Of a stretch of 64,000 nucleotides of DNA, positions 20,836 to 25,219 are shown one piece after another. Within the stretch, counting starts at the first letter, position 1. Every line of letters begins with the position of its first letter. The stretch lies in assembly GCA_029245675.1 (NCBI GenBank), contig JAQWOV010000026.1, forward strand, positions 1 to 64,000. The letters run 5' to 3'. A program made the translations under genes and the position numbers. This DNA comes from Acidimicrobiales bacterium. Lineage in GTDB: Bacteria > Actinomycetota > Acidimicrobiia > Acidimicrobiales > MedAcidi-G1. The notes beneath the pieces were generated by a model. That model did not search any database, had not been told where the DNA came from, and was given only the letters and a program-made list of their open reading frames with translations.

Positions 20836-22020
20836 CTATTTTTTAATAAGTGTAGAAATTTTTTGGCTCACAACTAGACGGTGTTCGTTGATGAATGCTT
20901 CATGGTTCTCCGCGACCGTTTCAGGATCGTAAATGTAGTTCACTAACACACCAAACGATTCGGATTGGCCTTTTGGCGATAAATCGCCATCGATGTTGAT
21001 TTGTTCGAGTTGTGCTCCATTACGTAGGTGAAAGCGAGCAACAGGATCCCGAGGTTGGTTATTTCTTTTTGCAGTTAATAAATAAGTTGCCGTTAATGTT
21101 TCAAGATCGTTTTCAAATGTTTCAAGATCAATGTTTTCTTCATCCACCCAACGACATAAACCTGGCACTGGTGACAAAGTTGAGAATTGATTCAAACTTG
21201 GAACAGTTAATTGAAGTTCGCTTATCACTTGTTTGAGCAGGAAATCACCAAGAGGGATGCCGCGTAACCCTGCTTGACAGTTTGTAATTGAATAAAAGAT
21301 TGCGGTATCAGGCAGAAAAGGATCAGTAGCATCATTGCTTGGTACTGGTGCGTCAATAACGTCAGCGATTCTGGTTGCCAAACCATGAAGAAGAGCTACC
21401 TCGACAAAAATTAATGGTTCATCGGGAAGGCTTGGATGGAAAAATCCATAGCAACGCCGGTCATGTTCAAGACGTCTACGGAGATCATCCCATCCACGAA
21501 TTTCATGCACTGCCTCGTACTCAATTAATTTTTCAAGAGTTTTAGCAGGTGTCTGCCAGCCAATACTTTGAAGTTCTAAAAACCCTCGATTGAACCAAGA
21601 TGAGAGTAGGTATTCCAAGTCTTTTTCAACAGAAGAAAGTGAAGTGTCTTTAAATCGTAAAAGATCAGCTCGCATGTGAAGCAAAGTATGAATTCCATCA
21701 GAAGCAAGATTTATTGATCGGAAAAGATCAAGTCGCGGCGCCTCTGCTGCATCCCACACCCTTTGAGCAGAAATAGGGTCCAGAGCTTCCTGGTAGGCAG
21801 TCACAGCGTCTTTTAATGCCAAAACATCGGGTGAGAAATCTTCAACTAGAGAAGTAAAGAATTTTCGTTTCGCATCATCAGCGTTTACTTGAGTAAGAGT
21901 GGTGTAACGAGAGACAACTAGTTCTGCCAAACTTCGAGCAGCCGTTTCGTCACGAAGACGAATCAATGCTTTGCATGTTTGCTCAAGCGCCGCAAGCTCA
22001 GAATTTATGGAACTATTCAT
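20836..22020 (-). CDS. Malonyl-CoA decarboxylase
   Basis: A 394-residue enzyme that converts malonyl-CoA to acetyl-CoA and CO2. The C-terminal GNAT-like catalytic domain shows the conserved PLIFVEVALLHGL block, the FYSITNCQAGLRGIPLGDFLLKQV block and PVPGLCRW. The N-terminal helical domain carries SWFNRGFLEL. Length fits the bacterial enzymes. No malonate transporter or malonyl-CoA synthetase is adjacent, so the source of malonyl-CoA is unclear: malonate catabolism, or control of the malonyl-CoA pool. Confidence 0.9.
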   Translation of the reverse strand: MNSSINSELAALEQTCKALIRLRDETAARSLAELVVSRYTTLTQVNADDAKRKFFTSLVEDFSPDVLALKDAVTAYQEALDPISAQRVWDAAEAPRLDLFRSINLASDGIHTLLHMRADLLRFKDTSLSSVEKDLEYLLSSWFNRGFLELQSIGWQTPAKTLEKLIEYEAVHEIRGWDDLRRRLEHDRRCYGFFHPSLPDEPLIFVEVALLHGLATRIADVIDAPVPSNDATDPFLPDTAIFYSITNCQAGLRGIPLGDFLLKQVISELQLTVPSLNQFSTLSPVPGLCRWVDEENIDLETFENDLETLTATYLLTAKRNNQPRDPVARFHLRNGAQLEQINIDGDLSPKGQSESFGVLVNYIYDPETVAENHEAFINEHRLVVSQKISTLIKK

Positions 22021-22091
22021 GCTCCAATTGTATTAGGGCACTTCTCAATAAATCTAAATTATTTTTTTGTCACAGTTATGAAACAAAGAGA

Positions 22092-22751
22092 TTAAATTTT
22101 CGTTGTGGGTAGAGCGATGAAAGCAATAATTATGTAATGCGATGCGATAGCGAGAACCACAAATAAGTGGAAGATTTCGTGAAATCCAAATTTTGTTGGC
22201 CAAGGATCTGGTTTTTGTGTTCCATAAACAAGCGCCCCTAGTGTGTGAAACGCTCCACCTAAAAGTAGAAAAGTGAATCCCCAGCCTCCTAAATTTTTCC
22301 AGAGTTCATCAATGACTAGAAGCGCTGACCAGCCCACAGTAATAAATAGAGGAACGGTAATGCGTTTAGGTGGGGCAGGCCAAAATATCATTACTAACAC
22401 ACCAATAAGAGCTCCAATCCAAACCACAGATAAAACAAAGGTTGCGTGAGAACGAGGCAGCATCAGCCAAGAGATAGGGGTGTACGTTGCTGCTATTGCC
22501 ACAAAGATCATGGCATGATCAACGCGTCGCCAAAGACTATGCGCTTGACGACTCCATGTGTGGCCGTGGTAGAAGGAACTCACTCCAAAGAGACCAATAA
22601 TTGAGATTGAGTAAAGAGAAGCTAAAAATTTTGCTTCTTGTGCACTAATGATCAGAATTGGGCAAAGAACTAGGGCTGCTACGAAAGCTAAACGATGAGA
22701 CCATCCTCGTAGAGCAGGTTTTTCTGCTAAATGCATAGGGGGATAAGACAT
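22092..22751 (-). CDS. Hemolysin III / PAQR-family membrane protein
   Basis: A 219-residue protein with seven membrane segments. The PAQR motifs are visible: FGVSSFYHGHTWS after the second helix, RRVDHAMIFVAIAATYTP, and a C-terminal GFHEIFHLFVVLA, giving the conserved Ser, Asp and His residues thought to bind zinc. Family members are named after hemolysin III, but their role in bacteria is probably membrane homeostasis or lipid hydrolysis rather than haemolysis. It stands alone between malonyl-CoA decarboxylase and tRNA-Ala. Confidence 0.85.
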   Translation of the reverse strand: MSYPPMHLAEKPALRGWSHRLAFVAALVLCPILIISAQEAKFLASLYSISIIGLFGVSSFYHGHTWSRQAHSLWRRVDHAMIFVAIAATYTPISWLMLPRSHATFVLSVVWIGALIGVLVMIFWPAPPKRITVPLFITVGWSALLVIDELWKNLGGWGFTFLLLGGAFHTLGALVYGTQKPDPWPTKFGFHEIFHLFVVLAIASHYIIIAFIALPTTKI

Positions 22752-22778
22752 GTAATCAGTTTCTAAGAAGATTGTTTG

Positions 22779-22852
22779 TGGAGCTGGCGGGAATCGAACC
22801 CGCGACCCCCTGCTTGCAAAGCAGGTGCTCTAGCCAACTGAGCTACAGCCCC
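22779..22852 (-). tRNA. tRNA-Ala (anticodon TGC)
   Basis: On the minus strand GGGGCTG pairs with CAGCTCC, followed by discriminator A. The anticodon arm CCTGC-TTTGCAA-GCAGG gives anticodon TGC, and the T loop is TTCGATT. All arms pair. The 3' CCA is not encoded. Confidence 0.97.
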
Positions 22853-22916
22853 AAGCCCCTACAGCGTACGCGAAGTACCGCCATGCCACTACGAGATAGA
22901 GGAATCTATTGAAGAT

Positions 22917-23726
22917 TTAAATAGGTCGACCAAACGGCAACTCAGGGCACCAAGTAGATAAATAGGATTCGGCTTTATAACAAGCACCAAGAACCGGGCC
23001 TTCTGGATGATTCAAAATTTCATTAATTAACGATTCCATGAGTGAATTGACGTTGTCTCCCATGAGATCACCAGCAACGGTGATGAAGTCCGGTAAAACA
23101 ATTATTTCTTTGGCTACACAGTGGGCTAGACCTCGTGTGGTCACGGCAAGTCGAGTAGTAGGAACAACTACTTTCGCCTGGATATTTGGAACCATTTCAT
23201 AGCCAAGAGCTCCCATAGCTTTTCCAACAAAAAGTAGATCTGCTTCCGCAGTAAAGGGAGACTCAGATACAACAAGATCAACGTTTACCTTTTTTAACTC
23301 CGCTTCCAAAAGGGTTGGATCTTCAAGATCAGTGACGGCAGTTTTTGCTTCTGGGAAAGCGGTCTTTGCTGCCAGAACTGCACCCCAAAAAAGAGCTTCA
23401 TCAGTAGAAGTGTTTTCTAGACCACTCATTTCACCTTTGTCTACTCCTTTACCTGCCTGAAACGTGTAGTCAATTTCCCATCCAGATACTTCAGCAACAA
23501 AACCCTTTATCGCTTCTTCACGATTTTCAGGAAGTGAACTGATACCCGCAGAAATTCCTGTTTCTTGTAACTCAAGACAAGCTAATGAATAACTAAACGA
23601 TCTCGCGAAATCCTTCGCTCCACCTTGAAGAATTTTTTTGGCAAGACGAACGTTCCCTTTCCCAGCGACATCTGGAAAATCAACAGCTACAAAAGCTGAA
23701 CCGTCAGAGAGTTTTCTAATAAACAT
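22917..23726 (-). CDS. Degenerate Glu/Leu/Phe/Val dehydrogenase-like protein, probably not catalytic
   Basis: This 269-residue protein resembles amino-acid dehydrogenases at both ends. Near residues 35-62, ARSFSYSLACLELQETGISAGI lines up with the dehydrogenase block that normally reads GGGKGGI, so the catalytic Lys and glycines are lost. Near 205-235, QAKVVVPTTRLAVTTRGLA, IIVLPDF and TVAGDLM line up with the region normally reading ILVVPD and NAGG. The Rossmann GxGxxG motif is not visible, and the protein is about two-thirds of the usual length. I infer a pseudoenzyme or binding protein. It lies 6 bp after xseB on the same strand, so it is probably the third gene of the xse operon. Confidence 0.55.
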   Translation of the reverse strand: MFIRKLSDGSAFVAVDFPDVAGKGNVRLAKKILQGGAKDFARSFSYSLACLELQETGISAGISSLPENREEAIKGFVAEVSGWEIDYTFQAGKGVDKGEMSGLENTSTDEALFWGAVLAAKTAFPEAKTAVTDLEDPTLLEAELKKVNVDLVVSESPFTAEADLLFVGKAMGALGYEMVPNIQAKVVVPTTRLAVTTRGLAHCVAKEIIVLPDFITVAGDLMGDNVNSLMESLINEILNHPEGPVLGACYKAESYLSTWCPELPFGRPI

Positions 23727-23732
23727 AAATCA

Positions 23733-23960
23733 TTAATCCTGCTCAAGAGCATCAACCACGCGGTCAACTTGCAGGCGCGCGGCATCAATGCGATTTCGAC
23801 AATGACGTATTAACTCATCAGCACGAGCAACTTGAGATGCCAAAAGGTCTACATCAACAGACTCTCCTTCTAGCGCGCTAAGAATTCCTTGGAGTTCAGT
23901 TAAAGCATCTTCATAACGCATGTCACTTGCTGATTCAGCATTTTCTTCTAATGAGTTCAT
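23733..23960 (-). CDS. xseB: Exodeoxyribonuclease VII small subunit
   Basis: A 75-residue helical protein with the family pattern RYEDALTELQGILSALEGESVDVDLLA, two helices joined by the conserved acidic turn, then a basic second helix. Several copies wrap around the large subunit to form exonuclease VII, which degrades single-stranded DNA from both ends. Its ATG overlaps the xseA stop by one base, so the two are translationally coupled. Confidence 0.92.
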   Translation of the reverse strand: MNSLEENAESASDMRYEDALTELQGILSALEGESVDVDLLASQVARADELIRHCRNRIDAARLQVDRVVDALEQD

Positions 23961-25219
23961 TACTTTTCTCCTTGATCACTAACTGTAGAGGAGACAGTTC
24001 CATTACTCACAGACGTAATAAGAACATCACCTTTTTGTACTTGTTCCCTTTTGGTAATAAGTTGACCATCGCTACGTCGAGTAATTGACCAACCACGAGC
24101 TAAAACATTAACTGGATCAAGAACCCGCAGACGATGCTCAAGTTCAGTTAATCGCTCGCTTTGACGTTCTAAACGCATTGGAGCTGATCGAGAAACTCTT
24201 TTCGCTATTTCATTAAATTTGTCTTCTGTCCTTAAAAGAGTTGATGAAACAGCTTTTGTTAATCGCAGACTTGTTTCGTTTTGAAAACGCAACTCTTGAT
24301 CAATTACTGATCTCGTTCGTTCACAAATTGATTGGTTTAATTTTGAAAGCTCGTCTACAAACTCTTGAACGTTGCTGATTAAAGCATTTGCACATGCAGT
24401 AGGTGTTTTATATGCGCTATGAGCTACCTCATCAGCAACACTTCGGTCGATTTCATGACCAATACCAGTGAAAACAGGGCAATCTAGTTCGGCGATGGTC
24501 CGGGCTACTGATTCAGAGTCAAAAATTGAGAGATCTGCGCTAGATCCTCCACCCCTAATTAATGCTATGACATCTGGTTTATGTGAAGAGAGAATTTTTA
24601 ACCCAGAAATGATTTCAGTAACTGCACTTTCACCTTGAACCCGGGAGTCGTGCTCTAAAACATTAAAACCGAAGCCGCTATTTGAAATCTCGGTTATGAA
24701 ATCAGCATGAGCAGCAGATCCAACACTTGTAACTAATCCAATCCGTATTGGGGGAAAAGTGACTGGAAGCGAAGCATTTTTTTCTAAAAGCCCTTCATCT
24801 AGAAGTTGTTTTAACAACTTTTCACGTTCTATTGCTAATTGCCCAAGAGTGAATGAAGGGTCAATTTGATCCATGATTAGGTTTAAGCGTCCACTTGGAG
24901 GGTAAAAATTCAAACCAACTAAAACACGTACTTGAAGGTCGTCACTAAGCGTCAGATTTCCAGATTCAGTTAACACTTTTTCAACTTGATTTCGTTTACT
25001 TTGCCACAGAGCTACATTCAAAACAGCGGTAGGTGGTTGCCCTGGTTCATCATTTGGTTCAATCAAATCAAAATAACAATGGCCGGGGCGAGAGGTTTTA
25101 AAGTTAGAAATTTGACCCTCAACCCAGAATTTTTCTGGGAACAAAGTGTCTAATCCATCTTTAATTAATGAACTCAATTCAGAAATTGAAAGTGCAGAGA
25201 ATTCATTTGGATTAACCAT
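23960..25219 (-). CDS. xseA: Exodeoxyribonuclease VII large subunit
   Basis: A 419-residue catalytic subunit with an N-terminal OB fold (FWVEGQISNFKTSRPGHCYFDL) and the catalytic domain carrying IGLVTSVGSAAHADF, IRGGGSSADLSIFD, TGIGHEIDRSVADEVA and KTPTACA. A coiled-coil region and a short C-terminal beta segment follow. These motifs define the family. The start has AAGGA just upstream. It is the first gene of the xseA-xseB operon, divergent from the acyl-CoA synthetase gene. Confidence 0.95.
   Translation of the reverse strand: MVNPNEFSALSISELSSLIKDGLDTLFPEKFWVEGQISNFKTSRPGHCYFDLIEPNDEPGQPPTAVLNVALWQSKRNQVEKVLTESGNLTLSDDLQVRVLVGLNFYPPSGRLNLIMDQIDPSFTLGQLAIEREKLLKQLLDEGLLEKNASLPVTFPPIRIGLVTSVGSAAHADFITEISNSGFGFNVLEHDSRVQGESAVTEIISGLKILSSHKPDVIALIRGGGSSADLSIFDSESVARTIAELDCPVFTGIGHEIDRSVADEVAHSAYKTPTACANALISNVQEFVDELSKLNQSICERTRSVIDQELRFQNETSLRLTKAVSSTLLRTEDKFNEIAKRVSRSAPMRLERQSERLTELEHRLRVLDPVNVLARGWSITRRSDGQLITKREQVQKGDVLITSVSNGTVSSTVSDQGEK

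Follow-up and report, generated by a model that had tools for sequence, protein, structure and literature searches.

A degenerate Glu/Leu/Phe/Val dehydrogenase homologue behind the exonuclease VII genes belongs to an apparently undescribed dead-enzyme family of Acidimicrobiia

The window analysed here, a stretch of 64,000 nucleotides from an Acidimicrobiales bacterium, carries directly behind its exonuclease VII genes an open reading frame whose product, which we name dhL (Table 1), is, as its sequence profile indicates, a true but degenerate member, by descent, of the Glu/Leu/Phe/Val dehydrogenase (ELFV) superfamily. It is almost certainly a pseudoenzyme by descent, and its clade is a real and apparently undescribed family of dead enzymes. 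We see roughly an even chance that the overall explanation is an ELFV-derived dead enzyme with an eroded cofactor site and a non-catalytic role, whose position behind xseA and xseB (together xseAB) was inherited. The dhL start codon follows the xseB stop by 6 bp, xseB itself abuts the end of xseA, and a tRNA-Ala gene lies 64 bp downstream of dhL. The open reading frame map and the Pfam matches of xseA and xseB thus confirm the arrangement given in an earlier note on this DNA, and in the window dhL is likely to be co-transcribed with the exonuclease VII genes.

Table 1 Features of the dhL locus in the window
Feature	Coordinates	Strand	Basis or conservation
dhL CDS, 269 aa, degenerate ELFV dehydrogenase homologue	22917..23726	-	ORF; start and length kept in relatives; dN/dS
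xseB, exonuclease VII small subunit	23733..23960	-	PF02609, E 1.9e-11
xseA, exonuclease VII large subunit	23960..25219	-	PF02601, E 1.5e-63
Codon S47, at the substrate-binding Lys of MTxK	23586..23588	-	Lys in 24/24 intact ELFV proteins, 0/80 relatives
ETGISAGI, residues 55-62; S59 at the catalytic Lys of GGxKGG	23541..23564	-	Ser in 74/80 relatives, Lys in 24/24 intact
Codon G92, at the catalytic Asp of PDxGT	23451..23453	-	Gly/Ala in 79/80 relatives, Asp in 24/24 intact
C-terminal PFGRP, residues 264-268	22923..22937	-	Confined to the degenerate clade; intact ELFV rows essentially lack it

Taken alone, dhL matches no Pfam or NCBIfam model, even at E ≤ 10, so the protein of the window is easy to overlook; its longer relatives are easily misnamed dehydrogenases. 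A single-sequence search of the PDB returned one match only, GdhA of Thermus thermophilus (E 0.0028). The kinship with ELFV dehydrogenases that the earlier note had read from the two ends of the protein was established through the long relatives and through profile-profile comparison. An hhalign run of 7 short members against 15 intact ELFV proteins gave 99.3% probability (E 2.6e-20) over 244 columns, which rules out a chance resemblance, and a PDB profile search with the dhL relatives returned only ELFV dehydrogenases (those acting on glutamate, leucine, phenylalanine and tryptophan). The long relatives match PF00208 above its cut-off, at E 1e-8 to 1e-18, and a few also reach PF02812, weakly. 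Leucine, phenylalanine and tryptophan dehydrogenases are, unlike dhL, catalytically intact and NAD-binding; by profile match, dhL has the same two-domain architecture as these enzymes (PDB 6acf, 1c1d and 5b37). An AlphaFold model built on dhL and three relatives, four near-identical rows in all, had a pLDDT of 32.7.

We found a dhL match in 55 of the 100 relatives searched. Most homologues in the window's own family (f1) have 259-277 residues and show 44-93% identity; elsewhere in the order the matches are weaker, and many of these proteins reach 330-345 residues, aligning at the two ends with a gap between. When a profile made from 22 members was run against 395 genomes of the class, a sharp break appeared, with members below 1e-75, ordinary ELFV dehydrogenases at about 1e-20 and few proteins between. 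A survey of 396 genomes of the phylum gave only two proteins from beyond the order with scores under 1e-25, and both of these have kept the catalytic Lys residues. The clade is essentially restricted to one order of Acidimicrobiia, in which dhL is present even in small genomes of 1.4-2 Mb; L116, from another family of the class, falls within it on a very long branch, and its placement is unsure. In a joint alignment of 104 proteins (80 dhL relatives and 24 intact ELFV proteins), the 80 relatives form one side of a branch with SH-aLRT 98-99 even with the catalytic columns omitted from the tree; these trees were quick ones, with SH-aLRT as their sole branch support.

The tree rows nearest to the dead clade are L053 and L118, intact proteins from the same order, and another intact relative, 59% identical to L053, was found in a different class. 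This intact sister lineage (L053:3864-4889, L118:4574-5761 and L165:6645-7658) lies far below all NCBIfam equivalog cut-offs, the nearest models being GluDhGdhB_Halo and GdhA_Arch. Its members resemble dhL in the pattern of the N-domain, in the Ala-Glu helix at the C-terminus and partly in the STW motif; unlike dhL, they keep both Lys residues, the Asp and GFGKVG, and they lack PFGRP. A second, more divergent dead branch, a separate paralogue, is represented by L054:5138-6040 (genome G027 of f1) and L046:4871-6259 (f28); it adjoins a gene with a cysteine-rich CTGCAGC motif that looks, by eye, like an F420-hydrogenase beta subunit.

In the ELFV family, the Lys of MTxK binds the substrate carboxylate, and the Lys of GGxKGG and the Asp of PDxGT are catalytic. 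We take S47 and S59 of dhL to correspond to K113 and K125 in the numbering of the clostridial glutamate dehydrogenase. All three residues are kept throughout the intact ELFV proteins of the joint alignment, and not one is kept in any of the 80 relatives, in which the replacements are themselves conserved (Table 1); the 6 relatives without Ser at position 59 have Ala or Val. The earlier note had pointed to ETGISAGI in place of the catalytic glycine-Lys motif, which reads GG(A/G)K in active relatives, and to a missing Rossmann glycine motif, GxGxxG, and both observations hold for the protein of the window. Beyond these, two more catalytic residues are gone from dhL, the MTxK Lys (now S47) and the PDxGT Asp (now G92), and its cofactor domain is shorter by about 40 residues. 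Given that 80 of 80 relatives lack the three catalytic residues and fall into a single clade inside ELFV, the proposal of a dehydrogenase-derived pseudoenzyme is strongly supported.

The cofactor site has fared less uniformly. A complete GxGxxG survives in 15 of the 80 relatives, and the Rossmann segment between two strands, which spans 25-45 residues in the intact rows and about 44 in the long members, is down to 6 residues in the window and to fewer than 20 in 45 of the 80. Well-supported branches force at least five changes in the length of this segment; read on these trees, the loss of some 40 cofactor-domain residues is an event that occurred at least five times. The simplest history would begin with an ancestor in this order of Acidimicrobiia that had an ELFV amino-acid dehydrogenase, from which the catalytic Lys, the substrate Lys and the catalytic Asp disappeared a single time, at the clade's base. 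Decay of the NAD-binding motif and of the approximately 40 residues would have followed, repeatedly and independently, as expected if dinucleotide binding was no longer needed.

The remaining protein is under constraint. Compared with its two closest relatives, the window's dhL has a dN/dS of 0.13-0.23, and the open reading frames are intact throughout, ruling out a recent pseudogene. D16, R42, Y46, E253, R267 and P268 are present in 80 of 80 relatives, G266 in 79, W259 in 78 and F265 in 76; position K31 is Lys or Arg in 79 of 80, where most intact rows have Asp or Glu; and H176 occurs in 74 of 80, with Tyr in the window's own protein. This near-invariant new signature, PFGRP included, argues for a conserved new role and not for decay. 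What was retained would be the N-terminal (assembly) domain, a compact remnant of the second domain and the C-terminal helix, on which a new near-invariant set, D16, K31, R42, Y46, S59, E253, W259, PFGRP and mostly H176, would have been imposed.

As to what dhL does, we tentatively propose, at somewhat below an even chance, a non-catalytic regulator that binds a ligand. The protein may form a small non-catalytic oligomer that would bind a ligand or a partner through the remodelled cleft and the C-terminal tail and act as a sensor or regulator. The same invariant residues could equally be read as a new active site, in which case dhL would be a new enzyme with an NAD-independent activity in a cleft remodelled around S59, H176, K31, R42, Y46, E253 and R267. 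Across the clade these polar residues hardly vary, intact ELFV proteins seldom or never have them at the same places, and a different chemistry would be in keeping with the loss of NAD binding. However, the window's own protein has replaced H176, and S59 is not fixed in the clade. We consider a new enzyme unlikely and prefer a non-catalytic protein that binds a ligand or partner, because the cofactor segment was lost repeatedly and small residues now occupy the former catalytic sites. A broader conjecture, to which we attach low probability, is that dhL represents an order-wide, cofactor-less ELFV family whose rebuilt cleft (S59, H176, K31, R42, Y46 and the C-terminal FGRP) senses or converts a metabolite, and which in the xseAB branch may adjust the expression or activity of exonuclease VII to this metabolite.

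The position of dhL bears on whether it serves exonuclease VII. Within f1, dhL comes directly after xseAB in 34 of 35 scorable loci, and it does so in f36 as well. In five more families (f13, f35, f41, f43 and f53) its distance downstream of xseAB grows to 2-18 kb, still on the same strand, with a polyprenyl synthetase gene, prfC or both lying between xseAB and dhL in the first four; in f27, dhL follows the same polyprenyl synthetase. These arrangements read as remnants of an ancestral cluster xseA-xseB-polyprenyl synthetase-prfC-dhL. The conservation beside xseAB that the earlier note looked for thus extends, at 0-18 kb, to six families besides f1, making 7 of 21, but not to the other 14 (f54, f20, f45, f18, f24 and f12 among them), in which dhL was not found near xseA. 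There its neighbours vary and include, among others, a membrane pyrophosphatase gene upstream in f18, a photolyase gene alongside in f54, a luciferase-like monooxygenase gene downstream in f24 and, in f20, either a beta-lactamase-like protein or a transporter and glycine decarboxylase following dhL (the last two names assigned partly by eye).

Loss of one gene without the other was also seen. In G032, an f1 genome that is 88% complete, xseA was not found anywhere, and dhL is intact and next to fadD, the gap between them being only about 640 bp and holding the remains of an arginase-like gene. Thus, dhL can outlive xseAB. Two further genomes, G370 and G400, carry dhL and gave no xseA match. Ten f1 genomes lacking both xseAB and dhL were left out of the evidence, because linked genes disappear together in incomplete assemblies.

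It would be attractive to regard dhL as a subunit of exonuclease VII with an accessory or regulatory role, or as a protein that couples its activity to a metabolite: the gene stands right behind xseB in nearly all f1 loci and in f36, stays downstream on the same strand in the five further families, and is separated from xseB in the window by a gap so short that it suggests translational coupling. Against this, dhL persists in the three genomes in which xseA was not found, was not found near xseA in two-thirds of the families, and is missing from many xseA-bearing bacteria among the controls and in the phylum survey. Linkage to and co-occurrence with xseAB are therefore not obligate, and we reject the subunit as a general function, rating the idea itself quite improbable. 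The tie to exonuclease VII is one of position, since G032 lost xseAB and kept dhL and most other families place dhL elsewhere; the functional tie to a DNA-repair nuclease envisaged in the earlier note was not borne out, in view of the 14 unlinked families, G032 and the varied neighbours. From these gene orders, the link between dhL and xseAB is probably inherited gene order and nothing more.

Between the window and L003 (window 20850-24000), synonymous divergence is 0.29 for dhL, 1.0 for xseA and 1.4 for xseB, and nucleotide identity rises sharply at about 23.7 kb, remaining high beyond the tRNA-Ala gene; the contrast and the rise together suggest a recombination boundary between xseB and dhL. 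Beside the tRNA-Ala gene, L003 has a 2.2-kb insert (L003:5953-8118; window 22776-22820) with one lipoprotein-like open reading frame of 668 aa, and the matches on either side of the insert share 45 bp of the window, as a short duplication would.

The best PDB match of dhL, Thermus GdhA (PDB 3AOE chain E), offers a precedent of another kind, being a catalytically inactive, leucine-responding regulatory subunit of glutamate dehydrogenase (PMC9570180). Both are ELFV proteins without the catalytic Lys, GdhA having GGAAGGI in place of GGAKGGI much as dhL has lost the Lys of GGxKGG. Moreover, an intact glutamate dehydrogenase is present in the window's genome (G000:C5:117026-117727) and in all eight other f1 genomes searched, and dhL might then be the dead regulatory subunit of the cell's own enzyme, as GdhA is for GdhB. 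The two proteins differ in extent, however: GdhA keeps the MTxK Lys and its full length (419 aa) and joins its partner GdhB in a hetero-hexameric glutamate dehydrogenase, whereas dhL is much more truncated, having lost three catalytic residues together with the NAD motif and a segment of the cofactor domain, often in a genome with no intact ELFV enzyme. Indeed, at the PF00208 cut-off an intact ELFV gene is missing from 14 of 35 dhL genomes; completeness reaches 95-100% in several of these partnerless genomes, and one of them consists of a single contig. Also gone is the leucine-site Arg, with R in 21 of 24 intact rows and in 1 of 80 in the dhL clade, at a column (window residue 74) that corresponds by alignment to R135 of 3AOE and may be off by one. 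The same result concerns the putative amino-acid or nucleotide sensor of the earlier note, since the known leucine site of glutamate dehydrogenase lacks its Arg here. Because of the partnerless genomes and the missing Arg, a regulatory subunit of glutamate dehydrogenase is rejected as the general function, and we judge it very unlikely.

Few dead members of the amino-acid dehydrogenase superfamily are on record, and Thermus GdhA is the one precedent that we found. The open-access literature, to which our search was confined with subscription papers outside its scope, yielded no ELFV pseudoenzyme beyond the Thermus case and nothing on dhL in Acidimicrobiia. Arranged by degree of loss, the dhL clade and its intact sister form a series that leads to dead proteins of full length and on to proteins that have lost part of the NAD-binding domain, the last stage reached at least five times. 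Such a series makes the fate of an oxidoreductase after the loss of catalysis directly testable.
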